A DNA stretch of 64,000 bases from Fabrea salina. Its lineage: Eukaryota > Ciliophora > Heterotrichea > Heterotrichida > Fabreidae. Where the stretch lies: positions 124,001 through 188,000 of the forward strand of contig JALIHJ010000045.1 of assembly GCA_022984795.1 (NCBI GenBank). Direction: 5' to 3'. The notes beneath the pieces are model-generated. The model saw only the letters and a list, made by a program, of their open reading frames with translations. It did no database searches and was not told the origin of the DNA. A program made the translations under genes and the position numbers. Shown here piece by piece: positions 2,035 to 63,514 of this stretch; the first letter of the stretch is position 1; each line of letters opens with the position of its first letter.

Positions 2035-2381
2035 GTAATAACATTTCTGCAGTTAGGACACTTGTTACTGCTGTGGAGCCAAGGAAGTATGCATTCAGTG
2101 TGGAACGAATGCTTGCAAGGCAAAACTAGGCCTGACTCATGAACCTCCATACAAATGGAGCACTCAGTATGAAGACTCCCGACTTCAGAAAGACAACTTA
2201 TTTCTGACTCAGTAAGTCCTTCGCAATCAGGCTCGCCTTCGAAAAAGAACTCTAACTCAGAAAGAGGCACATTGACTTCTGGCAAATTCTCCAAGCTAGG
2301 CAGGGTGCCTTCTGCATACTAGTTACCTGTTCTTTGAATAAAAGACTCCACAAAGAGCTCTATGTCCGGTTGTCTAGCCAT
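2031..2381 (-). CDS. Small RING-H2 finger protein with one 15-nt intron
   Basis: Two exons (2327-2381 and 2031-2311 on the minus strand) give 111 aa. The C-terminal half is a complete RING-H2 finger: CSIC, then CKHSFHTEC, then CPNC, expected to bind two zinc ions and recruit an E2, so it is probably a ubiquitin ligase. The only usable ATG is in exon 1 (MARQPDIELF); without removing 2312-2326 that exon stops at TAG after 20 codons, whereas splicing gives a continuous frame. The ATG follows directly on the stop of the upstream gene (TAA|ATG, zero spacer) and the 3' end overlaps INO1 by 4 bp. Substrate unknown. Confidence 0.85.
2312..2326 (-). other. 15-nt spliceosomal intron (RING gene)
   Basis: Minus-strand sequence GTAACTAGTATGCAG: GT...AG borders, in-frame TAG, exactly 15 nt. 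Removal joins ...FIQRT to EGTLPSLENL and gives the RING gene its only ATG. The size and GTAA start match the three introns of the ankyrin gene in this window. Confidence 0.85.
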
Positions 2382-4403
2382 TTACTTTTTAGAAATAAAC
2401 AAGTTTTTAATAGCAGAAGCAAACTCTTCGCGGTTGGTGAGTTTTGCAGTGATAGCTCTTTTCTTCATTTTTATGGTCAAAAGGTCTCCTTTTTCTTCTA
2501 GTTTAACCATGTCTGAAGTGTAGTTTTTGTGAAGCACCTTACCGTCATGAGCCATCACGTACAAAGAGTCACTTGTCAGCACCATCTTTACAGAGAACCC
2601 TTCAATGGTTGCATCATGACTGAAAGCCAACACAGAAGAGGGATCTACAGAAAGGAGTCTTGCGAAGCCTGCAGGACCAGCTACTTCCCCTAGAACTTTT
2701 CTGAGCATCTGCACTTCTTGCTCTGCTGACTGGAGCTTGTCTGCAAGGCTTCCTGCGTAGGTCTTTAAAGAGTCCACGGTGTCTTGATAAACGCCAAGTT
2801 TGTTTGAGTAAGGCAGTTCAAGAGAAGCCTGGTGCGAGTGGAGGATTTCTTGCATGGAGACTGGATTGGTTCTTTCGAAGCAGTTTTGCACTCTGTAGTA
2901 AAAAGCTTTGGCTTCAAGGAGAGTTGTAATCACTATCATCATTTCCTCAATTGTAAAACCGAGCGCTAAGGGATCTGTGGAGAGCTTCATATTGAGCTCT
3001 TCTAAAAACTCTATTCTGCCTGAAAGCTGAGAAGTTCTGCAGGCTTCTCTTAGGTTCCCACGAACTCCTTGGAACACCTGGGCTGTTAAGTCCTTGCACC
3101 TAAAGTTCAGCCAGTCTTCTCGGGTTTCAAAAGTAGTTTTCACAGACTTATAAAGCACATAGTCTCTGTTTACGTAAAAAGAGGCTAAGAAGTTACTGGC
3201 TGAGCCTGTTAAAACTTTTTCGTCTTTATTGGGAGAAGAACCTTTTGAACTGCTTGAGTGGAAACTTGAAGACCTGCAGGAGAACTCTCCAGAGTACACT
3301 GAAAGTTTAGACTGCTGGAGTGATTGGGGATTGTGGAGTTTGGCTGCTAGCTGTACAGAAGGAGCTTCTAGCTGGAGACTAAAGCTTCTAGAAAAAAGCT
3401 TGTCTTGGATCTTGTTGCGCGAGTTAGAGCAAAAAGGAGACAGCAACAAGTCTCTTCCCCAAGAAAACCACGAAGAATTCTCTTCTTCAATAAAGTTTTC
3501 AGAAAGTTTTTGGCTGAAACTACTCAGGATCTTCGAAAGGTCCCTGCAAACCGCCGAGTCGCTGACTAAGTTAAGTTTGACTTGCAAAGGAGTCAAGTAG
3601 TGTATTTGAATTGAAAGTTCAGAAGTGTCTTTAATGAGTTCCACAAACTGAGACTTAGAGTTAGTCACTGAGTTTTCAAAACCTGTAGTAAGCATGACCA
3701 CAAAAGAAGTGCTTTGAATACTGCACAAAGAGTGACAAGAAGAACTCTTAAAAGCATAGCACACAGGACACCCTCCACAAGCAGGACTGTCAATTTTGTG
3801 ACTGATCACAACCATACTGACGTTGTCCTGACTCCCAGAAATAATCCTTCCCGAAAGCTCCCTAACTTCTAGTCTGCGAATTAACTTGTACTTAACTCCT
3901 CCAGGCGTAGAAGCAAACCCATTCAAAAACTTAAGTTTTCCGAACTCGTCACAAGCGTTCATTTTAACTTGCTTGATGTTGATCTCTCCAAAGTAAAAGT
4001 TTTCCTCTTTTGCTTTGAGTTTTAGCTTAAGGTCTTCTACTTCTAGGTTCAGGTTGTCCAAAACTTTTTTCAAAAGGCTTTCTTCAGACTCAGAAACCTT
4101 AGGAGGACTAGGTGTGGTTTGGTTTTTTTCAAAACTAAGTTCAAGTGTCACTTGGGAGAGTTTTAAGTGCACAGGAGTCACTGAAAGGGAACTCCAAGGA
4201 ATCACTAACTCTATTTTAGATATTATTCCTTCAGTGATGGCCAGGTAATTTAAGTTCAGGGATTCTGTTAGGGCTTTTATGTTCAGTTGGACGTTTTGCA
4301 GAGTGATTTTTCCACTCCACAAACTGAGTTTGTTTATGTCTACGTTTGACAAGTATTCAGAGGCAAACCTCAACAGTACAGTCCTTAGAATTCCAGCAAT
4401 CAT
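2382..4403 (-). CDS. Short VPS13-like protein with chorein N-terminal domain
   Basis: 673 aa. The first 100 residues (MIAGILRTVLLRFASEYL, then the block WSGKITLQNVQL and a hydrophobic run) match the chorein_N region of VPS13/ATG2 bridge-like lipid-transfer proteins: an N-terminal amphipathic helix followed by beta strands with the KLSLWSG pattern. Full VPS13 proteins exceed 3000 aa, so this is a very short form, perhaps a half-channel or dimeric tether. The middle has a Ser-rich stretch, and the last 100 residues form a beta-rich block that may be a PH-like fold. It lies zero bases upstream of the RING ATG and 49 bp from the next gene. Lipid transfer at membrane contact sites is inferred from the N-terminus alone. 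Confidence 0.7.
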   Translation of the reverse strand: MIAGILRTVLLRFASEYLSNVDINKLSLWSGKITLQNVQLNIKALTESLNLNYLAITEGIISKIELVIPWSSLSVTPVHLKLSQVTLELSFEKNQTTPSPPKVSESEESLLKKVLDNLNLEVEDLKLKLKAKEENFYFGEINIKQVKMNACDEFGKLKFLNGFASTPGGVKYKLIRRLEVRELSGRIISGSQDNVSMVVISHKIDSPACGGCPVCYAFKSSSCHSLCSIQSTSFVVMLTTGFENSVTNSKSQFVELIKDTSELSIQIHYLTPLQVKLNLVSDSAVCRDLSKILSSFSQKLSENFIEEENSSWFSWGRDLLLSPFCSNSRNKIQDKLFSRSFSLQLEAPSVQLAAKLHNPQSLQQSKLSVYSGEFSCRSSSFHSSSSKGSSPNKDEKVLTGSASNFLASFYVNRDYVLYKSVKTTFETREDWLNFRCKDLTAQVFQGVRGNLREACRTSQLSGRIEFLEELNMKLSTDPLALGFTIEEMMIVITTLLEAKAFYYRVQNCFERTNPVSMQEILHSHQASLELPYSNKLGVYQDTVDSLKTYAGSLADKLQSAEQEVQMLRKVLGEVAGPAGFARLLSVDPSSVLAFSHDATIEGFSVKMVLTSDSLYVMAHDGKVLHKNYTSDMVKLEEKGDLLTIKMKKRAITAKLTNREEFASAIKNLFISKK

Positions 4404-4452
4404 TTTTATTGATTAATTACTGTAAGACTTCCCTACATACTCTAATTAGTAA

Positions 4453-6579
4453 TTATACGAACAAAGTTTCTTCAGGGTGTTCATAAGACAGCAACTTTGC
4501 CTTTAAGAACCCTATTTGCATTTCGATGTCTTCAATTTCAGAGTGTTTGTTCATGACTCTTTGGGCAATTTCTGATCTTTCTTTAGACTTAACAAAGATT
4601 TTTTGGTTGATGTCAGAAAGTTGCTGGTGGAGCTGAGTTAAGTTGTAGTTGAGTTGGTCAATTTCAATCTGCTGAACTAAGTACTGGTGTTCGAATTGTC
4701 TGCTGGACTTAAGCTTATCGCGCAAAGCTTGTTTGAGTTCTTCTTTTTGTTTGCGTTGGTTTTCTAAGAAGCTTTCGCTTTGTTTTTTGCAGTTCTGAAC
4801 TATTTCGTCTTTTTTCTTCCTTATTTTGCGAAGTAGTTCTGCACGGTCTCCTTCGTACTTAAGTTTGAGTTTGTGGAGTTGGTTTTCTTTTTCAATAGCA
4901 GTTTCTTCGAAGAGTTCGATTTTCTCTTCGATTTGGTTGTGGTACAGAGTCTTTTTTTCATACTGAGCTATTGACTCTGATATGAAGTCCATTATTTCAT
5001 TGGCTTGTTTGCGTTCTTCTTTTCCGAATTTTTGACCTAGTTGGTAAGAACTGTCAATTCGGGACTTGAGGATCTCAGCTGTGGTTTCTAGTTCAGAAAT
5101 CTTAGTTTTGTTCTCACGTTTAGACCTGTTTAGTTCGTCTTTGAGTTTTTTTAGTTGGTTTTGGAGAGTCCTGAGTTCTTTTTCTTTCGATATAAGTTCT
5201 TGGTCTTTGGACTCAATGGACCCTCTTGTGTTGTTTAGTTGTGACTTGGCTAGTTTGGTTTCTCTAGAAAGTTTCATGAGTTCTAGGCTTTTTTCGTTAA
5301 CTTTTTCTACGATGTTTTTGTTGTCATAGAGGTTTTCGACTCTTTCTAAGTCTAGATTTACGTCTGAGATCTGGGAAAGGATTTCTTTTTCTTTAGCAAC
5401 GTACTTGTTGTACTCAGCTTTTTTGGAGTTGATGCTTTCTTTGAGGGACTCAAACAGAGCGTAGGCATTTTGCAACTCTTGGGTTTTTTCTTCAATTTTA
5501 GTTTTTTCAGCTATGCTTTCTTTTTCTTTGTTTTGAATTTCGCTTTGAAGTTTAGTCACGCTTTCTCTGTACTCACTTTGGTTTTTGTTGTCTTCTTTAA
5601 CGCTTTCAGTGACTTCTTTATTGTGGTTAATTACTTTGTAGCCTTTGGAAACTTTTATTTCAGTTTGTGTTTCAGGAATGGGTTTGGGCAAGCATTCTTG
5701 AGTGATGGTTTCACGCAAAGGTTGGTTGTCCAGGAGCCACCGGTGCTCTTTGATTTCGCTTGCACTGGGTCTTCTGGAAGGGTCTTTAATAAGCATCTTG
5801 GAAATAAGGTCTTTTGCCACCGTAGGAAAGGACAAAGGGAACTTAGTTTTGCATGCTGAAATGTTTGCAAGCATTTTGTCCCGGATGTTGGCTTTAAAAG
5901 GAGTGGAACCTGTCAGCATCTCAAACAAAAGAATTCCTAAGCACCAAATGTCAGCTGCAGTGTCGTGCCCGCGCTCCTCAACCATTTCAGGCGGCAAGTA
6001 CTCTAGTGTTCCACAAGTAGTGAAGCGTGGCAAAGCGTTGTCCACAGAGTAGTAGTTGGACCAGCCGAAGTCAGTTAGCTTAAGGCGTCCTTTAGAGTCT
6101 ACAAGGATGTTTTCAGGCTTGATGTCTCTGTGGATGATAGCAGGGATGTGGGAGTGCAAGTACTCCACTGCCAAAAGGACTTCTCTGAAGTACTGCGCGG
6201 CTGTTCTTTCGAGGAAGTTTTTATCGCGGTACAGTTTATGGAAAAGATTCCCTCCTTCAACTAGCTCCATGATTAAGTAGCAGTACCTGGCGTCTTCAAA
6301 GTGGTTGTAAAGCTTCACTATGTGGGGATGGTTTAGTTCGTACATGATGTATACTTCTCTTTTGAATTGGTCGATCATCTTCATGACCTTTTCTTTAGGA
6401 ACTTGTTTAAGGGCGAATTTCTGGTTGGTTTTCTTGTGCTTGACTCTCCAAACTTGGCCAAAAGCTCCGTCTCCAAGTCTCCTTTCGAACTCAAAGTCTA
6501 TTTTCTTCAGTTCGCCTTCTTCGCCTTGTTGAACAGATGGCGACTCAAATAATATTTTTCTAAACGATCTATTAGCCAT
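4453..6579 (-). CDS. Aurora-like Ser/Thr kinase with long C-terminal coiled coil
   Basis: 708 aa. Residues about 28-285 are a complete kinase: glycine loop RLGDGAFGQVW, VAIK lysine in FALKQV, catalytic loop HRDIKPEN, DFG in DFGWSNY and activation loop TTCGTLEYLPPEM. DFGWSN and the CGT-x-[DE]YLPPEM block are hallmarks of Aurora kinases. Unlike Aurora proteins, which end soon after the kinase, this one continues for about 400 residues of Glu/Lys-rich heptads, nearly all coiled coil. The active residues are present. It is divergent from a cyclin, suggesting a cell-cycle role (chromosome segregation, spindle or cortical structures). A NEK- or PLK-type function cannot be excluded, but the activation loop favours Aurora. 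Confidence 0.88.
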   Translation of the reverse strand: MANRSFRKILFESPSVQQGEEGELKKIDFEFERRLGDGAFGQVWRVKHKKTNQKFALKQVPKEKVMKMIDQFKREVYIMYELNHPHIVKLYNHFEDARYCYLIMELVEGGNLFHKLYRDKNFLERTAAQYFREVLLAVEYLHSHIPAIIHRDIKPENILVDSKGRLKLTDFGWSNYYSVDNALPRFTTCGTLEYLPPEMVEERGHDTAADIWCLGILLFEMLTGSTPFKANIRDKMLANISACKTKFPLSFPTVAKDLISKMLIKDPSRRPSASEIKEHRWLLDNQPLRETITQECLPKPIPETQTEIKVSKGYKVINHNKEVTESVKEDNKNQSEYRESVTKLQSEIQNKEKESIAEKTKIEEKTQELQNAYALFESLKESINSKKAEYNKYVAKEKEILSQISDVNLDLERVENLYDNKNIVEKVNEKSLELMKLSRETKLAKSQLNNTRGSIESKDQELISKEKELRTLQNQLKKLKDELNRSKRENKTKISELETTAEILKSRIDSSYQLGQKFGKEERKQANEIMDFISESIAQYEKKTLYHNQIEEKIELFEETAIEKENQLHKLKLKYEGDRAELLRKIRKKKDEIVQNCKKQSESFLENQRKQKEELKQALRDKLKSSRQFEHQYLVQQIEIDQLNYNLTQLHQQLSDINQKIFVKSKERSEIAQRVMNKHSEIEDIEMQIGFLKAKLLSYEHPEETLFV

Positions 6580-6855
6580 TTTAAACTTTTATATTTCTGA
6601 GGTGTACCTCCTCGGTATGTTGAGCTTATATATAAATGAGTGTATTTAATTGCTTTGTTTTCATTTTGGACTTATTTACTTATTCTTTATGATTCTAGAA
6701 CTAACAACTAAAGGTCCATAAAGTAAGGAACTGTGGTTAACAGTTTTTAGGCAACTACTATTTTTAGCTAAAAAATGTGTAAATTCGTTTTTACGCTTGT
6801 TATTGAAAAACTCAAATGAAAAAGCAATGGCTATCACTTATAAAATTAAAATCAA
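6580..6855. promoter_or_regulatory. Shared upstream region of kinase and cyclin genes
   Basis: 276 AT-rich bp between the divergent ATGs of the Aurora-like kinase and the cyclin, one of the longest promoter gaps in this window, where most are under 50 bp. No named factor site is recognised. The length itself suggests regulated, perhaps cell-cycle-dependent, transcription. Confidence 0.4.
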
Positions 6856-7587
6856 ATGAGTAAATTCAGTGCTGAGCCTTACTCGAAAGAGAACCTGGCT
6901 TCTCTTTTAGAGGAAAACCTTGCCCCCAACAGAATCCAGTATCTCTATAATGGCAATCAACCATTAATAACACCCCATATTAGGGAACGCCTAATTAACT
7001 GGATATTCGACACGGCTCGCAACCTCTCCTCGAATCCTACTTTGCCGCAGCTAGCCGCCACATACATTGACATTTTCTTAGAAAATAAAAAAGTCTCCCA
7101 CTTAAACGTTCTAGAACTGGTGGGAACTGTTTCAATAGGCATAGCTCTTAAGTACTTAGAGGGAAAAACACTTACTCCAAAGCATATTTTTCATATGCTT
7201 GACAGAAACTTTACGGTAGACTCTATAGTTACCACTGAACTTTTTCTGCTTAACTGCTTGGACTGGAAACTCAGCCTCCCAACTCCATCTGAAATCAGCA
7301 GAGCTCTTTTGGTAGAGTCGTGTGAAGTCAGTCCTGCTAAGCTGGAAGAAATGGGGGATAACTTTGCAGCTCTGTGCTTGGCCAACGAAGAACTCTGCAA
7401 AGAGGGCGACTTACTGATATCCGTAGGATCCTTGGCTTGTGCTATGGACAAACTTGGCTTTGGGCAGTTTCAAAACGATTGGCTTGAATGGATTGAAAAA
7501 ACTCAACGCCTAAGTGCCAATGACGTCTTCCACTACAAGCAAAAGGTTTATAAAGCTCTTACCGAGATAGCTAAAAGCTCTGGGTAA
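6856..7587 (+). CDS. Cyclin
   Basis: 243 aa. An N-terminal cyclin box is visible at about residues 35-140: RERLINWIFDTARNL, AATYIDIFLENKKV, then the IALKYLEGK block and LLNCLDWKLSLPTP, which leads into the second fold. Cyclins activate CDKs; the LNWKL-type motif (here LDWKL) and spacing resemble A/B-type mitotic cyclins of protists, but the protein is short and lacks a clear destruction box near its N-terminus. It is divergent from the Aurora-like kinase. Assignment as a cyclin is good, the class is not settled. Confidence 0.85.
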   Translation: MSKFSAEPYSKENLASLLEENLAPNRIQYLYNGNQPLITPHIRERLINWIFDTARNLSSNPTLPQLAATYIDIFLENKKVSHLNVLELVGTVSIGIALKYLEGKTLTPKHIFHMLDRNFTVDSIVTTELFLLNCLDWKLSLPTPSEISRALLVESCEVSPAKLEEMGDNFAALCLANEELCKEGDLLISVGSLACAMDKLGFGQFQNDWLEWIEKTQRLSANDVFHYKQKVYKALTEIAKSSG

Positions 7588-52229: not shown

Positions 52230-55200
52230 CTAAGTCCTCACTTTTCTTCCTCTGAAGAACTCTAGAGCTTTTGAGTTACTGTTAATTTCTTCAATCTTCA
52301 GTTCTTCAACGACTGCATTGTTACGGGCCATTCTGCGCTTGACTAACTCAGCAATTGTCTGGAAGAAGATCAGAACAGAAGCCAGCACTTGGACTCCCAT
52401 CACTGCTAGTGTAGTGTATATGATAACTTCTTCAACCTGTTTTTCGTAGTTAAGGTCTTCTCCCAAAAAGTAGTTCACCAGTCCAAACACTGCAAAACAA
52501 CCCAGTTCAGAAATGGTGTTTGTAACTTGCAGAATGCTTTCAGAGTAAGGTCTCACAGCCACTAAGTAACCTAAAGACCCCAAAGCCAAGAAGATATTGA
52601 TGAGTGATTGCATTACTGGAAAAGCACCCATCAACATAAGGTTCAAGCAGTAAAGCAGTCTCCTCAGTACAAAAAAGATGTAAAAGTACCTAGCAAACTT
52701 ACCTCCTTTAACATCGAACTCGTAAAACAAGGACCCAAACATTCCATAAAAAGCTGACTCTTCACTGAGTCTTGTAATGTGTTCAGGCTTCTTAGCAATG
52801 AACCTAAGCACCAAAACAGGAGACAATAGAAGAAATACTCCAAAGACCACTCCTACTACCCAGTTAGCAATGGCCAGTAGTTCTGTGCTGAAGTTCCACA
52901 ACTGAATAAAAACTGCCAAACAAATCTCAAGGTAGGACTGAATCCAGAACCTAATGAACACTCCGTACTTGTACTCACTCAGAAGTTTAGTGAACTTCTT
53001 GTGAATAACCTTCACTTTGCACTTTGACAGTCCCCAAACTACAGGCCATAGCACTAAAATAAGGATCATCACAGAAAGCGAGTTGCCTGCATTGGTGAGG
53101 AACAAGCTAGACTCAAACCCATAGTCAGAGGAGTTACTGTGATTGTTAGGAGTTTTTTCTTGGAGGAGTTTAAAAGGGTTAGGAATAGGCACCACTTCAT
53201 TGAAAGAAGAAAAGAACCCAACTAGCACTGGAGTGAGTTTGTTCTTAGAAATGGGAATCAAGGCCAGTATCTGCACAGTGTTGACCAAAGACCACAGACT
53301 AGCTGGGTTGGGGTTTAAGAAGGCAACTGCTAGACTTGTACCAGATGCTAGTGCCACTGCACTTTGACCAGTTCTAGTGCCTCCGTAAGTTATCTGGGGT
53401 TGGTAATCCCCTTCAGTGTAAGAATCTAATTGGCACTGTATTGAAGAAGCCGAAGCAGACAAGATTCTGCATACATTAGAGCCTAGCCTGGTTTCCAGTT
53501 TGAGAATTTCAGTTGAAAAGTTCTCTCCGTTAATGGTTACTATACCTGAACTTTCAGAGAAGCTTTTAATGACTGGCTGGAAAGAGCAATCCCCTCTACA
53601 CATGGTTAGTCTGTTGTCAATCCAAACTCTGAGTTGAGGCTTAGTTTCATAAGTTCTTAAGAAGTCAGAAGGGATCACAAACCAGAACTGGGAGTCTGTT
53701 GAGGCTTCTCGTAAAGTTTCTCCATCTACTTCACTGTCGTCGTTGAGTTTGAACTTGAGTTCAGAGGAACTGGGATTCATGTAGCTAGGAAGAAGAGCGT
53801 AAATGTAGTTATTGTGGCAGTAGATAAACAAGTTGAAGTAATTTCTGCTTATCGAACTTTATAAAAGTAGTTCTTTGAAGTGCAATCTGCAGGATTGAAT
53901 GAGTGTACTGCTTCATTTTCTTCTCTGTAAATAAAGGGACGTCTGTTAGTATCAAGAGCATTGGAACTAAGATCCAACCTCTTGATCATAGGGAATCCAT
54001 TCCTTTGCCCATTTCCAGGCATTTCCACTCCCAGGGAAAAGGAGTTCCTTCCTCCTGAACTATAGTGCTCTACTTCTAAGTAGTAGGATTCTCCTGCTGT
54101 AAATGCTATAGAGTTCGACTGATTCTCTCCCCACATGAAGTAACTATATTCATCTGATTCCTGACTTGAGTTAATGATTTCTTGCTTGTTGAGAGGATTG
54201 GAGTCAGTACTTAAGTATACTATAACGCTTCCCCTGAAAGAAGTGTAGAATACATAGTTTCCTGTCCTTGGTGGTTTGAAGAGTCCGTAGATCAGAGAGT
54301 CATAGTTATCTGTGTTTGTGAGAATAGATGCTGAAGGGATGACTGTTTTCTGAACTAGTTCACTCTCGACCCTAATGTTACCTGGAGTATAAGTCTCTCT
54401 GGTCAATCCTGCACCCCCTTTGTAGTAGTTTCTGTCCTCCAAGTCGAAGTAGTTTTCACTGCTACATTTGATAGTGTCGGAGCTTGCTTCAGTGACTTGG
54501 TATTGGGACCCATTCACTTCTACCTGAACTCTAGAAATCTCATTGGGGAAGGACTTTCCAGTGATTGTAGCTTGCATCCCGTTGCTTGAGTCGAAGGAGA
54601 CAACTTCTACAGCAGCCAGAGTTCTGAACCAGTATTGATCTCCCTCTGGTGTGTAGCCTCCTGTCCAGTGGAATCCTTTTGTTTCGTCAAATAGCTTGTA
54701 CTCCATATTCTGGTCCCCATGCACATTGTTGCCTACTACTCCATTAAGAATGTAAGGATCAGAGTTTTCGACATACTCACTCCCAAATGCTATTCCTAGT
54801 CCTCCTATCTTCAAGTAGTTGATGTTGTCTTTATGGCCTGCCTCAGGAAGAAAATTCAGGCCAATAGTGTCTCCAGCAGCCCCTTCGCTTGGGACTAAGC
54901 TCATTATAGGATCAGGCCAACCCCAATTAAACGCACTGCTCTCTAAGTATATTTGCACAGAGTTGTGCAGTACTTGTAAGTCAGGGTTACTTGCATCACT
55001 TGAACCCCAAGGAGGAATAAGGCACTCAATCTCATCTGCTTTCACAGAGAGCATTTCGCAGTCCCTTCCATCTAAAGTCACTTGGTAGTTACTTTTATCC
55101 AAGTCACTTGTGAAGTCCCCAAACAAGTACAAGCTACTCAGCCCATAAAAGTACTGAGGATCAGTAGTTCCCTTGTTTGGGGTGGCTATTTGACTTACAC

Positions 55201-55237
55201 TTACAGCTTGGCACAATCTTATCAGCAACACGATCAT
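52230..55237 (-). CDS. Large surface protein with PA14-like, IPT and multi-pass membrane parts, one frameshift
   Basis: Two frames in line: 53849-55237 (462 aa) and 52230-53831 (533 aa), split by one frameshift near 53831-53851. The first opens with a signal peptide (MIVLLIRLCQAVSVS; an upstream TTG start is not needed) followed by a beta-rich block, IPT/TIG-like repeats (VVSFDSSNGMQATITGKSFP) and a PA14-like domain (YDSLIYGLFKPPRTGNYVFY). The second has another IPT-like unit, then six or so membrane helices. The parallel family member at 59539-63514 has the same membrane part. Probably a cell-surface receptor-like protein or a recent pseudogene; assembly error not excluded. Confidence 0.7.
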
Positions 55238-55280
55238 ATTTATTAACCTTTGCACCTTAAATTTAGTTAATTGCTTACTT

Positions 55281-55411
55281 CTAAAAAGCAAAGAAAAACG
55301 ACCATATTCAAGAGGAAAAACAACCTAAGAAGACGAAAATAAGCAAGAAACTCTCAAAAACCTAAACAGAGGCCTAGACGGCTCACACTAATTCCCATAA
55401 ATAAATAAATG
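55281..55411 (+). mobile_element. Old, truncated LINE tail
   Basis: Shares the block GAGGCCTAGACGGCT and the (ATAA)n tail with the copy at 59231-59522, and TTCAAGAGGAAAAA upstream of it. The frame decays quickly (RGLDG followed by a stop). A weak direct repeat (TGCTTACTT against TGTTTACTT) may be a diverged target-site duplication. It lies upstream of the surface-protein gene, opposite strand. Confidence 0.6.
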
Positions 55412-55514
55412 TTTACTTGAACTGCTTAAGAATTTGGCGACTTTGAGCATAAAAAGTGCATAGCCTTCCCTATAGTTGAGTTTACACTTAAGAATTTAGA
55501 GGTAACTGTGAGTC

Positions 55515-57953
55515 TTAGAAAATACTAATTATTGAGTGGGTGACCGGGTCGAAACTAGTAGTTCCTTGTTGGTCTTGGAAGTAGATCTTCCCAGAGTAAA
55601 GCAAAGGGTCCGAGGGTTCTGCAGTCAAGTTGGTGTAAACTTCTTCCCAGTTACCTCTTTGCTCCTTGACTCTGTAAGACTTGCTTTCTCCCAAAACGTA
55701 GATGTACTCAGTGTCTCTGCACAGAAGCTTCTTTCCAGGGAGCACTAATTCTTGTTCAAAGCTGTTGTGCTTAGTGTTGTACTGGTACAGATTGTTGGCT
55801 GAGCTACTAGTGAGTAGTAAGTTGCCTTTGAAAGAAACCCACTTGGGGTCTGGGAGTTCTTCTGGGAGTTTGCAAAGGGTCTTCCACTGCTTGGTTTTTA
55901 ACTCGTAGCCGTAAAGCGACAGTGAGTCACTGGCTAAGCAGTAAACCACTCCTTGGTTATAAAAGGCTTTAGTAAGCTTAGCAGGAAGGGTTACTGATTC
56001 TTCTAGGTACAGAGTGTGAGGGTCAAGTAGAACTGCCTGGTCTGAACCTAAGACAAACAAGTTCCTGTTCGGAAGAGTGCAGTGGTGCAGATAGTTACCC
56101 ATTCTGGACTGGATGAGCTCAGGAACAATTCTTACTGAATCGGTTTTAGTTTCCAGGTCAAGGGTTTTGAGTCTGTTTCCGTAAAGCTTAAAGTGGTACC
56201 TAGAGCTGTAAGTAGGCAGCTGGAACTCTTCTTTCTCCAGAATGAACTTACTGCTTTCGTTAGTATGAAACAGTTTGCCCAGAATCACCATTCCGTCGCT
56301 TTCGTACCTTCTGATTGAATTTGCTAAGTCTTTCTGGTTCCAGTGGAGCAAACACTCTGCTAGAGAAGTTGATTCTTCCAGGTTCTTTTCTATTTCGTAA
56401 ATTTGAGTTTCAAATGAGTTCAGCTTAGCTACTTCTTCACTGCATATTTGGTCAAGGACAAGCTTCATTTGGTTTGTGAAGTCGTAAGCTCTTTGCTTGA
56501 GTAAGTTTATGGAGCCTTTGACTGCAGTCAAGGAGTCGTGCATCTTGGACTCTTTTCTGGACTTGTCAGGAATGATTGACTCCATAACATGGTATTTAGA
56601 TCCATAGTCTTCGTAGTGGGATGGAATATGCTTAAAGCACAAGTAAGAAGAATTGCATCTGCATAAGAAGTTAGGGTCAGTACCACAGTACTCGCACTTG
56701 TTGGTAGGTGAGTCGGAAGTGATGGCCTTGGAAAACTCTGGCAAAGGAATTGAAAATGCTTGAGTGTGATCTTTCATGAACTTTTCTTGTTGTTGTTTCT
56801 TTTGGTGGAGTTCGTTGACTTTATCTGAGAGTTTTCTGAGTCTTGAATCGTTGTCCCAAAAGTTTTGGAACACGTCTTTGGTTTGCAAGTGGTCATTGAA
56901 GAGTTTGGTGATTTCGTTTCTAAGGTTCAAAGTAGTTGCAGCTCTGCTTTCACAGAAACTGCAGTCAGAATTAGAGCACTTTATGCAGGAACTGTGACCG
57001 CAAGGGTGTTTGAAGGCGCAAGAACTACAACCTTGATGTCCGCATGGAAACTTTTCTGTGCAGTCACTGCAGAGTATGTGATTGCATGCACTTTTCTTTT
57101 GATAGTTTTCAAAGCATTGTCCGCACACCTCATGACTACAACTAAGAGTAACTTTGCAGCTTAGACATGACTTATGACCACATTTCAAGTATACCATGCA
57201 TTCTTTGCATACTTTGTGACCGCAATTTGAGAGTAAGCAGCAGTTAGAACATGCCTCATGACCACAGTCTAAAGTCTCCACATATTCACTATAAACCTTA
57301 TGACCGCATTTGAGCTCAACTTTGCAAAAAGGACAAACTCCATCATCCCAGTATTGTAATTCAGGACTTATTGAATTGCAATCATAGCAAATCAGGTGTT
57401 CACAAGCAAAATAGTAGGCACTGGAGCATTTTGGACAAGTTGTATGGCCGCATCTTGTGCTCGAATCTTCTAATTCACATTCCCAGCAAATCTTATGCCC
57501 ACATTTCAAAGTTTTAGAATTTCCTGAACAGTGAGTGCAGACTATGTGCCCACAAGCTAAACTTATGGAGCACTGCGAGCAAGCTTTATAGCATTGAGTA
57601 CAAATTTTATGTCCACACAGCAATGCCTCAGCATTAGTTTCGCATTTCCGACAAACTATATGACCACATTGCATTGCTTTGATTCTCTGTGGGCATATGA
57701 AACATTCTGTATGTCCGCATTGTAAGCTACATTTTGGGACACAAATTTCGCAAATTTCATGTCCACACTTTTGTTTTTGAGTTTGACAGGCATTACAAAC
57801 TTGGTGCCCGCAATGTATTCTCTTAGATTGTGAGTAACATTTTTTGCAAAATTTATGCCCACATTGTGACATTATTGAACATCTTGCACAGATATTTCTT
57901 CCGCATAAGCATTGATCATGAGCTGAGTTGCCACAATAATTGCAATGCACCAT
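55515..57953 (-). CDS. Protein with about 18 CGH-x2-C-x2-C repeats, B-box-like module, coiled coil and propeller-like tail
   Basis: 812 aa. Residues 1-340 are a chain of about 17-19 short zinc-type units of the form CGHxxCxxC (for example CGHKFCKKC, CGHEICEIC, CGHTTCPKC), spaced every 15-20 residues, with a few degenerate ones (CGHKVYSEY). Around residue 425 lies a variant B-box-like cluster (CEYCG, FLCRC, LCFKH, H), followed by a coiled coil. The last 200 residues contain short beta blocks (SLYGYELKTKQWKTLCKL, NNLYQYNTKHNSFEQ) like a kelch propeller. The unit resembles NF-X1 or RING-like knuckles but the long tandem chain is not one I know. May bind nucleic acid or act as E3. Confidence 0.85.
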   Translation of the reverse strand: MVHCNYCGNSAHDQCLCGRNICARCSIMSQCGHKFCKKCYSQSKRIHCGHQVCNACQTQKQKCGHEICEICVPKCSLQCGHTECFICPQRIKAMQCGHIVCRKCETNAEALLCGHKICTQCYKACSQCSISLACGHIVCTHCSGNSKTLKCGHKICWECELEDSSTRCGHTTCPKCSSAYYFACEHLICYDCNSISPELQYWDDGVCPFCKVELKCGHKVYSEYVETLDCGHEACSNCCLLSNCGHKVCKECMVYLKCGHKSCLSCKVTLSCSHEVCGQCFENYQKKSACNHILCSDCTEKFPCGHQGCSSCAFKHPCGHSSCIKCSNSDCSFCESRAATTLNLRNEITKLFNDHLQTKDVFQNFWDNDSRLRKLSDKVNELHQKKQQQEKFMKDHTQAFSIPLPEFSKAITSDSPTNKCEYCGTDPNFLCRCNSSYLCFKHIPSHYEDYGSKYHVMESIIPDKSRKESKMHDSLTAVKGSINLLKQRAYDFTNQMKLVLDQICSEEVAKLNSFETQIYEIEKNLEESTSLAECLLHWNQKDLANSIRRYESDGMVILGKLFHTNESSKFILEKEEFQLPTYSSRYHFKLYGNRLKTLDLETKTDSVRIVPELIQSRMGNYLHHCTLPNRNLFVLGSDQAVLLDPHTLYLEESVTLPAKLTKAFYNQGVVYCLASDSLSLYGYELKTKQWKTLCKLPEELPDPKWVSFKGNLLLTSSSANNLYQYNTKHNSFEQELVLPGKKLLCRDTEYIYVLGESKSYRVKEQRGNWEEVYTNLTAEPSDPLLYSGKIYFQDQQGTTSFDPVTHSIISIF

Positions 57954-58129: not shown

Positions 58130-58476
58130 AGGAAAAACTCGGCATTAAGCAGATGGAAAAAGCCACAAAGAACTTTATAAACTGGATTCACAACAAGGAA
58201 TTCCAAGCTCAACAAAAGACTTGTGAAGCAAATTCCTTTTGATGTACCTCTTAAAAGCCCCAGAAATTGACACAGAACACTTACCTCAAACGCTATCACA
58301 ACCTGTAAAAGCACCAAGCAACCCATTAACCCATTTAAAGCAACTTTAAATATAATTTGAAAATGAAAAGCGTACTGTTCTGCAATCCAAAGTAACTTCC
58401 AGAAGCGCAATGAACCCAGGCAGCATAAACATCCCAGTTGACCCCGAAAAGCCTAAGACCTCAGAAGTCGACTTGT
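58130..58476 (+). pseudogene. Decayed coding-like sequence, unknown
   Basis: Plus-strand fragments read as coding in shifting frames: KQMEKATKNFINWIHNKEFQ, VKQIPFDVPLKSP, IDTEHLPQTLSQPVKAPSN, then MNPGSINIPVDPEKPKTSEV followed by a stop at 58474-58476. Several stops and shifts. No family recognised. Could be the remains of a host gene or of a mobile element. Confidence 0.35.
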
Positions 58477-58710
58477 AAACAGAGGTCTATCGCCCAACCC
58501 CTTCCTAAGCAATTTGAGCATAGTGCATGGTTGCATCTTTGTGCTCGAACTTGGCAGCCTTTGCAAACTTCATGTCCACAATCTGTTTTAATGCCTATGT
58601 CCGCATCCCAAAGTGACTGAACACTCTTGACAGCACGCGTGTCCACAAGAAGTATTGTAAAGAAACTTGCTTTGAAAACATTTGTTGCATTGTCTCGTTG
58701 CTTCCTGCAT
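58461..58710 (-). pseudogene. Fragment of a second CGH-repeat gene
   Basis: Begins with ATG at 58710 (MQEATRQCNKCFQSKFLYNT), then CGHACCQEC and CGH, and after one frameshift CGHEVCKGC and CNHALCSNC. Clearly from the same family as 55515-57953 and on the same strand, so a broken neighbouring copy, cut off after four or so units. Confidence 0.75.
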
Positions 58711-59538: not shown

Positions 59539-62500
59539 ATGTCGAAGTTGCTTTTAGTTCCAATGCTATTGCATATTGCTTGTTGTGCTTGTCCCGCCAA
59601 CTGCGGAAGTTGTGGAACAGGGGTAGACAGTTGCACAGCTTGTTCAACAGGTTACCACCTAACTCAAGGGATGTGCATCAACTTCTGCCCAACCGGATTT
59701 ACTCAGGAATCTGGAGTATGCAGCCCTTCCGACACTTTTGTGTTTCATCTAAGCTTAGAAAACGCGATTTTGGACATTGTGCAAGACCAAAGGAACTCCA
59801 TCCCAGTGCTGACGGGGAAAGACAACAGCTTCTACCCCAACTACGATTCAAGTGACCCTATTGCTGCAATTGGAAGAGGGTATTACTTCAACGGAGTTTC
59901 TAGCTACATGCAATTACCTCCTCACGCTTATGATGGAGGCAAGGAACTAACTCTGGCCCCTAAATTCACTATGGTGTTTTGGGTAAACCCTAAGCTTTTT
60001 GGGAAGGAATTGTTCGATAAGAAGGATGCCAGTAACATTGGGATTCAGCACCTGAGATTAGAAATACATTCAAACTATTTATATGTAGTGATGGAAAGCA
60101 TAACCTATACTTTGCACACCACTACAAACTCGGGTGAATGGAGTTTTCTAGTGTTTAAGACCTACACAGAGTCTGGCAACTACAAAATCTCTTTCTCAGT
60201 CAATGGAAATACTCCTGCGGTTGAAGACCTTGGGAATAACTTTTACCAAGATGCTACTACTGGATATGTTTCCAATATAGGAGCTTATTACCACGCTACA
60301 AATTCAATGTTGCTGTTTTTTTGGGGATTTTTGTGGGAGTTCAGGATCTACAACACTGACTATGACACTTCTAGTCTGTTACAGTCTTCTGGGTGTTTAG
60401 GAGGATGCATTTATTGCCCAAGCAACAACTTAGATCAATGCTTGTCTACTTGTGACATAAATGAATACTGGGATGACCCAAATAGCTCATGCAAGCAATG
60501 CCATCCTAACTGCCAGCAAACTGGATGCTTTAGATATGACTCCTCTTGCAATCTGTGTAGTGATCAACTATGCGAAACCTGTGATAGCTTTTCTACTTGC
60601 CAAACTTGTATCCCCAATGCTTCTCCTTCTTCTGATTGCCAGTGTGATCCTGGGTATGCCTGGAACTCTGTAACAGAATCTTGTGATGAAAGTTCTGCCA
60701 CTTGCACTTCCAACTGTAACTTTTGCACCACCTCAGCATTCAACCACTGCACTCAGTGCTCAACTAGCTACTACTTAGTCAACGAAGTATGTCACCCTTA
60801 CTGTCCTTCTGGTTACTCCCTTAACTCTGGAGTCTGTGACTTGTTTGATGACTTTGTATTCCATTTTCAGCCTCACTCAATACAAGACGTGGTGACTGAC
60901 TCCAAGTCTTCCATCCCTTTATCAACTGGTACAGACTCTTCCTTTTACCCTGACTCTACCCAAGGAGACCCTTACCCAACTCAAGGAAGAGGTTACTTTT
61001 TCAGCGGAACCTCCCACATGCAGTATGAGTGTCAAGCAGGCTGCAGTCCTACTCTTGTGATCTCGCCTAAGTTTACTTTGAGTATGTGGATCAAGTCAAC
61101 ATCGAGTTCTGGCACTCTGTTCTCCAAACAGAAGAATACTACTCCCTACACCAAGTCAGTTGCAGTAGAGCTTGACTCCAACAGCCCTAAAATCCATTTA
61201 AACGTTTCAGGGTATACATCTTACACAAATATCTGTGCCTTGAACCAAGACTGGAACTTCCTGGTAATCTCAACAAGCATTGACTCTACTCCACAGTTCA
61301 AACTCCAAGTTCAAGTAAACACTACTTGCACTGACTCAGTAAGTTTGGGAACTAACTGGTTAGAAGATTTTCAAGACAACTACTATTTAGTGATAGGTGC
61401 AGCTTTAGGTGGAACTGACACCTTCAGCAACTTCTTTTCTGGGTTCATTTGGGAAGCCAGACTTTACAATGCTCAAAAAGACCCCAGCACTCTGGTGCAG
61501 TCCTCAGATTGCAGAACCTGTGACCACTGCCCCATTGACAACTTCAACGAATGCTTATCAATCTGTCCAATAGAGCATTTTTGGAACGGGTACATCTGTG
61601 AAAACTGCAACTCTGAAGAGGACAAAGGCTGTGTAGATCCAGACTTAACTTTCGAAGCTAGTCTCACAACTCAGGCAGACAACTCACTGCAACTCAGTTT
61701 CTCAGAGGACCTAAAATCATCCCTTAGAGAAGATGACTTTGAAGTGGTGCTGCAGAACGAGACTATTCAGTACAGTTACTTTCTAGAAGAACTTAGTCTC
61801 AGCAGCTACAGGATCAACCTAACCTTCAAGTCATTTGTCTTGGAGGGAGAAGTGGTTCAAATAAAGTTCACTTCCAGCATTCTAAGCAGCTTGAACCACA
61901 CTTTAAGCAGCAGTAAAATTCAAGCTGAACTAAATGAGTTCCAGCCAGGCACCCACGAACCAGAAGAGCCCCAAAGCCTGGGAGAGCCCCAAATCCCAGA
62001 AGAACCAGTCAATTTCTACGCCAACTTAACAACTGAAGACAACTCTTTAAACATCGAATTTTCAGAGGAACTAGAAATGCCCTTAAACAAAGACAAGCTT
62101 ATAGTAGAACTTAAGAATAAGACTATTGACTACACCTACTCCTTAAAAGAACTCAGTCTCAACAGGTACAGAATAACTCTGAACTTCAAGTCATTTGTTT
62201 CAGAGGGAGAAGTAGTTAGGGTGGAATTCATCACACAACTCCTAAGTACTTCCAACCGCACTTTAGCTAACAACACTCTTGAAGCCAAGCTGCAGAAATA
62301 TGACTTGGCTAAAGTCCAAACCAGGCAAGCTAGGGAGCAAGTGCAATCACTAATTGCAGGAACAGGAACTACCACAGCCTTTTTCAGTTTAGTCAGCCGA
62401 AAACCATCAACTTTATGGACTTTAATGAACACTCTTGAGATACTGTCCTACATAGCCTTAAGTAGCAATCCCCTCACTCCAAGAATCAGAGGATTCTTTG

Positions 62501-63514
62501 AAGGAATAGACTTGCTGGAGTCTTTCAGGGCCTACTTAGACTACGCCTTAAAAGCCCTTACAGGCAGTGACTCCAGAAGCTATTCTTCAAGGTTTTCCTC
62601 AAATCTTTTCATGGTAACAGCTGCCACAAACTTAGCAGTATTGGTTGTGCTTTTAGTAGCATGGCCTTTTATTTGGATGGTATCGAAAACATTCACATCT
62701 GCTGAGGAAATACTCAAAGAACTGGCTGAAGGAGTACAAATACAATGTGTTTATTAGGTACTGGATCCAATGCTATTTAGACTTAGTAATAGCTTGCTTG
62801 ATCCAGTTATCTGATTTTCCAGAGGTTGAAGCACTGGAAATAGCCAACTATTTATCAGCTGGGTTGGTACTTTGCTTTGTTGTAGCTACTCCTGTGTCTC
62901 TGTGGCTATTCAACAAAAAGAAAGCATATGAAATAGCCGAATCAGACGAAGATTCGCATTTCTATTCTACTTGGGGAGCTTTGTTTTACGAGTTCGACCG
63001 AGAAAACAAGCCAGCAGCTCCCTACACCTACTTTCTGTTTGTCTCAATCAGAATATTACTAGCAGGGAGCTTGGTACTTTTGGGTAGCTACCCTTTGGTT
63101 CAAGCTGGTATTAACGCAGCAATCATGCTAAGCTATGCTTTATTTACCTGTGCAGTGAGGCCGAACCTTGAAAAAAGCAAGCAAATAGTGAATGGTCTCA
63201 CCGAAACAATTGTGTTCTTAGTATTTTTGGCTGTAATGTACTTTCTGAACAGTGATTGGGAAGGCAGCTTCTACAAAGTTGAGAACCTCATAGTATGCTT
63301 GGTTTTAGGAGTAGTTTTATTTCAGGCTTCCACTGCTATTTTCAGTTTTGCGTACAGAGTTTACTCTTTCTTGAGAGAAAAGAATAGTACTAAAGTAGTC
63401 AACTTACAAGAAAATAGTTTAGTAAACAAAACTCAAGGGACAAACATCACTACACAAATAGGAAGTCCTGAGGTTGTGCGATATGACCCCCAAAATTTCT
63501 TCAGAAAAGAGTAA
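59539..63514 (+). CDS. Large LamG/Cys-rich surface protein with multi-pass C-terminus, one frameshift
   Basis: Two frames, 59539-62757 and about 62732-63514, joined by a +1 shift somewhere in 62689-62731. Signal peptide (MSKLLLVPMLLHIACC), furin-like Cys-rich units (CPANCGSCGTG, CTACSTGYHL), two LamG-like domains each followed by Cys-rich units (CQTCIPNASPSSDCQC), two homologous beta domains (LSFSEDLKSSL, IEFSEELEMPL), then helices shared with 52230-55237 (FIRYWIQCYLD against FIRFWIQSYLE, and NSDW). At the junction the sequence is 2 nt shorter than the paralogue, so a small indel, not an intron, explains it. A LINE lies one base before the ATG. Confidence 0.75.

Follow-up and report, generated by a model that had tools for sequence, protein, structure and literature searches.

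A TRIM-like Kelch protein of Fabrea salina carrying a tandem array of units related to the RING-finger core

Here, we describe a gene of the ciliate Fabrea salina whose 812-residue product opens with a long tandem array of cysteine- and histidine-bearing units, related in sequence to the central part of the RING finger. Behind the array come a variant B-box-like finger, predicted helices and a Kelch-type propeller, an arrangement that supports the TRIM-like order proposed for this gene in an earlier sequence-only reading. The gene lies in a stretch of 64,000 nucleotides (hereafter the window). We lean, if only modestly, towards the view that a putatively zinc-loaded RING-core array has replaced the RING of a TRIM-like Kelch protein, which would then serve as an adaptor rod and not as a ligase. 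The features concerned are given below in window coordinates.

55515-57953, minus strand: array gene (812 aa), in the order putative zinc array, helices, B-box-like finger, helices, Kelch-type propeller
56946-57953, minus strand: array, aa 1-336, with 17 CxHxxCxxC units, two degenerate units and a CxxC pair at either end
57933-57944, minus strand: N-terminal cap, the CxxC pair CNYC at aa 4-7, which can be compared with C1-C2 of a RING
57324-57437, minus strand: near-RING stretch, aa 173-210, read from the sequence as C-x2-C-x7-C-x-H-x2-C-x2-C-x14-C-P-F-C
57282-57293, minus strand: YSEY, aa 221-224, in a unit without its CxxC pair
56952-56963, minus strand: C-terminal cap, the CxxC pair CSFC at aa 331-334, which can be compared with C7-C8 of a RING
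56766-56960, minus strand: first predicted helical stretch, aa 332-396 (block pLDDT 45-69)
56589-56696, minus strand: variant B-box-like finger, aa 420-455, C-x2-C-x7-C-x-C-x5-C-x2-H-x3-H-x8-H
56304-56546, minus strand: second predicted helical stretch, aa 470-550 (block pLDDT 37-58)
55551-56198, minus strand: Kelch-type beta-propeller, aa 586-801 (block pLDDT 61-92)
58316-58506, plus strand: 5'-terminal piece of a dynein heavy-chain gene that came with a segmental duplication
58500-58710, minus strand: remains of the 5' part of a further array gene, with a frameshift

The frame starts with ATG and is open in the standard code. Residues 31-326 include 17 C-x-H-x2-C-x2-C units, 14 of which are exact CGHxxCxxC, and with two degenerate units, one marked by CGR at residue 17 and the other reading CGHKVYSEY at residue 216 with both trailing cysteines replaced, the number of registers in residues 1-326 comes to 19. 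The unit periods are 14 residues (seven times), 15-17 (eight times) and 18, 21 and 32 (once each). The earlier count of about 18 tandem units thus stands, and a chance origin of the array is ruled out by shuffling and by genome-wide pattern counts: 10,000 shuffles of residues 1-345 gave at most one CGHxxCxxC, the same treatment of the first 345 residues of a paralogue on another contig (C64) gave at most two, and across the searched genome (18.33 Mb in 103 contigs) the corresponding DNA pattern had 113 matches versus 2 for the reversed pattern. Among the 100 matches listed, runs of more than two close CGHxxCxxC occurred only on the contig of the window (C43), on C64 and, in a looser form, on a third contig (C46).

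The sequence-only reading had held that no described domain fits the array, with RING and NF-X1 fingers as the nearest ideas. Profile searches do not support the first of these statements, and they support the choice of RING. Scanned alone, the array exceeded the Pfam cut-offs for PF00097 (E=4.1e-9 over nine stretches in the window copy and 1.6e-12 over 11 stretches in the C64 copy) and for PF14634 (E=3.8e-9 and 8.7e-12, respectively), these being summed partial matches whose best stretches span only the middle of the RING profile or its C-terminal part. Scanned in full length, neither protein passes a RING cut-off in Pfam (window copy, PF14634 E=0.021; C64 copy, PF00097 E=0.0073). The Pfam match that had been named beforehand as grounds against the earlier reading thus exists only in part, appearing for the array alone and being lost when the whole protein is scanned; our guess is that composition corrections in HMMER lower the full-length score. 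NF-X1 zinc fingers are also cysteine- and histidine-rich tandem repeats, but their ligand spacing differs from that of the array unit, and we rejected this identity, as the NF-X1 model was not listed by Pfam at E≤10 with either the full-length protein or the array, in a scan whose tool drops most matches above about 0.1. An NCBIfam search returned nothing informative.

Searches of the PDB with unit profiles gave the same answer. With a profile of single units (37 units, run without a control of its own), all 16 matches at E≤0.1 were RING proteins, all but LNX2 recognised as such by their names; singly these matches are weak, the best having E=0.0068. The best match of a three-unit profile was the RING of TRIM31 (E=5.6e-7), and its 55 matches at E≤1 also included 17 ribosomal L32/L40 entries (from E=0.022) and one Gal4-type finger. 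Reversing the rows of this profile left no match at E≤1, and shuffling the other letters within rows while holding cysteines and histidines fixed left 16 matches, the best again being TRIM31 with E=0.03. The RING match thus rests jointly on ligand spacing and on other residues. In one TRIM31 alignment, C1-C2 is followed by CGHNFCLKC on a whole unit and then by CGFFKCPLC on the next unit. Judged by these alignments, the array repeats in tandem the middle half of a RING finger, C3-x-H4-x2-C5-x2-C6. The unit equals the corresponding hairpin of PF00097, PF14634 and TRIM31, and the CxxC caps are alike as well. The array differs from a RING finger in that this core is repeated about 18-20 times, with each unit holding only C3, H4, C5 and C6; the full set of eight ligands, with C1-C2 and C7-C8 of its own, is absent from the units.

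The common view of a RING is that of a closed domain with two zinc ions. Since CxxC pairs cap both ends of the array, the array can be written as CC-[CxH-CxxC]n-CC, and the RING follows from this formula with n=1. The ends of the C64 array are CFVC and CSFC in the alignment, with CSFC following the array in both copies, and the dead piece beside the window gene opens with CNKC-x10-CGHACCQEC, which is the spacing of the first six RING ligands. A more far-reaching reading, which we hold only tentatively, is that RING fingers are the single-unit form of a zinc solenoid, that n is about 20 here, that neighbouring hairpins share zinc along a rod, which would be a new kind of repeat architecture, and that the resulting arm replaces the ligase head. 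Compared by eye with the C64 copy, the CxH is lost in two units of the window array and the CxxC in one, and as far as an alignment can tell such ligand losses fit several zinc-pairing schemes. The unit that misses its CxxC pair adjoins the near-RING stretch at 57324-57437.

In a full-length AlphaFold prediction the array was left unmodelled (block pLDDT 26-40). An AF2 prediction of seven units plus cap, made without a control model, reached a mean pLDDT of 82.5 in its best model and 78.8 to 62.4 in the other four; the input consisted of six in-register rows of shifted repeats, which may itself favour periodicity. The model repeats a strand, a CGH turn, a second strand and a CxxC turn about every 14 residues. 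Foldseek returned 133 PDB matches for this model, none at E≤0.001, with viral fibre, megalin and GATA entries at the top ranks. RING structures gave weak local fits, the best being RNF168 (32 columns, 2.2 Å, probability 0.28), with TRIM69 at 37 columns, 3.5 Å and probability 0.20. Of the 365 matches in BFVD, two had E≤0.001, and the top ten included phage proteins annotated as LIM- or amidoligase-type, whose predicted fold resembles the model along about 110 columns (TMq up to 0.57), although identity across the ten top matches is only 8-18%; in one phage protein of this list, identified from its length and the name of the phage, no CxHxxCxxC unit occurs. Viral contigs searched with the protein, with the array and with two fixed two-unit patterns yielded no relative, two pattern matches being unconfirmed by tblastn, and the best E-value in the phage tblastn search was 3.

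The domains behind the array had also been anticipated. The variant B-box-like cluster is present as a ligand pattern, for which 10 distinct matches were found among the fetched loci, and as a confidently predicted small fold (pLDDT 85-86 across aa 421-450 in the full-length AlphaFold model). The B-box profile PF00643 matches neither array gene, though it has 38 matches elsewhere in the genome. At least 17 of these 38 lie within 300 nt, on the same strand, of a listed CGHxxCxxC (counted by eye), and RING-B-box proteins are thus common in this genome. What had been called a coiled coil corresponds to long helices in the predicted model; those behind the finger, at aa 470-525 and 529-550, have low to moderate confidence. 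The propeller-like C-terminal end proves to be of the Kelch type by profile, Foldseek and pLDDT. A family profile made from the C-terminal half and eight relatives had 9tsn as its best Kelch structure in the PDB (E=3.6e-19), and Foldseek of the propeller gave E-values down to 9.1e-12, with KLHL17 (6hrl_A) at 8.7e-11. The Pfam Kelch models exceed their cut-offs in three relatives (L025, L029 and L030), but not in the 812-residue protein itself. The C-terminal substrate-binding domain of TRIM proteins is thus represented by a modelled Kelch-type propeller, with substrate binding as a predicted property. A RING-B-box-Kelch protein of the same genome (L037), which passes Pfam for all three domains, shows the same order of array or RING, B-box-like finger, helices and Kelch. 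The array protein differs from such TRIM proteins in having a RING-core array and no N-terminal RING, and in its variant B-box-like finger.

The C64 paralogue has 853 residues, is diverged and contains 16 exact CGHxxCxxC and 20 CxH units. A protein search of the genome with 314 residues of its array gave at least six matches at E≤10. Two of them fall in the window gene, and the others are the C64 source of the query, the dead piece, a RING-B-box-Kelch gene on C57 and one C46 gene, which brings the known array sequences to two complete frames and a single remnant. The C46 genes (L011, C46:7000-16000, frames at 2276-7541) likewise have several C-x-H-x2-C-x2-C cores per protein, five and seven in two frames; by eye, these cores are embedded in longer stretches of RING type that have CxxC pairs on their flanks, unlike the array units. 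One of five C46 pieces exceeded a RING cut-off in Pfam, and one had an IBR match below the cut-off. These multi-core frames may show how RING cores multiply. On C48 (L012:1398-5031), two adjoining frames appear by eye to encode kinase domains followed by RING/IBR-like cysteine tails. Literature on tandem RINGs and on ciliate TRIM and Kelch proteins, in a search that left subscription journals largely outside its scope, held no such array among the matches listed.

A block that overlaps the gene has been duplicated, window positions 53517-57767 being 92% identical to C64 (L009/L032) over 4,310 columns. The two copies lie on different contigs and their divergence is mosaic, which rules out alleles of one locus. 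Along the gene pair, dS falls from 1.55 (aa 24-225) to 0.35 (aa 225-335), 0.31 (aa 335-480) and 0.014 (aa 480-812), the last part having no amino-acid difference at all. Gene conversion of the 3' part, or its second transfer, would be the simplest reading of this sharp gradient. In the three diverged parts dN/dS is 0.22-0.28, and the value of about 0.22 over aa 24-225 (dS 1.55) indicates that the array is under purifying selection. Between the copies, 60 of 65 cysteines and 19 of 23 histidines in aa 1-335 are conserved, compared with 121 of 243 other aligned positions, in an alignment whose scoring itself favours cysteine. Within one gene, the units share a mean nucleotide identity of 51%, with 76% for the best pair, and the array is thus old; a recent minisatellite-like expansion of units is ruled out by the same figures. 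The earlier suggestion that the family is duplicating therefore holds for genes, and not for units, which have not been amplified recently.

Under the adaptor-rod explanation, an iterated RING core would take the place of the single RING in a soluble TRIM-like Kelch protein. Each unit of 14-17 residues would form the RING beta-hairpin and the start of the helix, with C3-x-H4 at the hairpin turn and C5-x2-C6 behind it, and would bind about one zinc ion, which would amount to roughly 20 in the whole chain. Dimerisation would come about through the helices, as coiled coils, and target binding through the Kelch propeller. The rod would serve as a stiff adaptor of multiple valency, with partners probably recruited through RING-like surfaces and not by E2 loading of its own. 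Zinc in place of disulphides, the rod shape, the manner in which zinc might be shared, the dimerisation and the adaptor function are what this explanation would predict. Against it stands a paralogue on C51 (L024:1833-6425) that shares the C-terminal half, with the B-box-like finger and Kelch propeller (aa 394-794, 59% identity), but has no array. The N-terminus of that protein is different and about 1,100 residues long, no CxHxxCxxC-type unit was counted in it, and searched against PDB and Pfam (1,102 aa) it had no significant match.

A working E3 ligase, in which many E2-binding RINGs would make a multi-RING TRIM and build ubiquitin chains in a processive manner, is an unlikely alternative that the TRIM-like order and the TRIM31 match would suit. 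The same goes for the near-RING stretch of the window copy, whose first loop is short and which overlaps the best zf-RING_5 stretch of the full-length scan (aa 179-211, below the cut-off); at this place, however, the C64 paralogue has ordinary units. RINGs carry a hydrophobic residue just before C2 for E2 binding, and such a residue occurs in only 2 of the 37 CxxC pairs of the arrays. Because these E2-contact residues, a further difference from the RING finger, are mostly missing, we favour the adaptor rod over a ligase.

Tandem zinc fingers often bind nucleic acid, and the array carries a net positive charge in both copies, which would suit a nucleic-acid-binding rod. The charge differs greatly between the paralogues, however (+9 in the window copy and +23 in C64), and the array alone was matched only by RING models in Pfam; RINGs mostly bind proteins, and we consider this rival distinctly unlikely. 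The composition of the array region, with 66 cysteines and 23 histidines in 345 residues, might instead point to a metal store or buffer of the metallothionein kind. Metallothioneins are short, cysteine-rich proteins without such other domains, whereas the present protein has 812 residues and goes on from the array to a B-box-like finger and a Kelch propeller. The unit also matches a folded RING core and holds hydrophobic residues at fixed places (L, I, M or F at -2 in 25 of 37 units; V, I, L or F at +4 in 26 of 37), and a metal store seems quite improbable. Finally, secreted repeats held by disulphides and not by zinc, for which one might cite the adjoining genes that by eye encode cysteine-rich membrane or secreted proteins (TIG/PA14 and laminin-G-like domains in Pfam), can hardly be credited, given that no strong hydrophobic run was found at the N-terminus, that histidines are conserved along with cysteines between the paralogues, and that the context is one of B-box-like and Kelch domains.

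If the adaptor rod and the relationship to RING fingers are correct, a RING core repeated end to end, selected in two paralogues and placed where a TRIM-like protein has its RING, would mean that the RING fold can be extended. The array would then lend itself to testing how the zinc ligands of a chain are paired, and as a rigid scaffold built with metal it might be open to engineering. It would also point to a way in which TRIM-like proteins may lose the ligase function yet keep the architecture.

The dead copy that had been noted next to the array gene is real. It aligns best to the N-terminal start of the array genes and includes two exact CGHxxCxxC units, at 58554-58580 and 58621-58647, whose starts are 67 nt apart and which thus lie in different frames. 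In the window, positions 58316-58710 join a truncated 5' end of a dynein heavy-chain gene to this remnant. The dynein fragment (58316-58506) is 95.9% identical to C64 over 194 columns; on C64 the matching, divergent dynein frame remains open for at least about 8.4 kb and continues into L031, which is dynein by Pfam. The genes flanking the array gene and the remnant, at 53849-55291 and 59539-62757, have TIG/PA14 and laminin-G-like domains in Pfam, and a similar-looking gene of this flanking type is found further along the same contig (L033).
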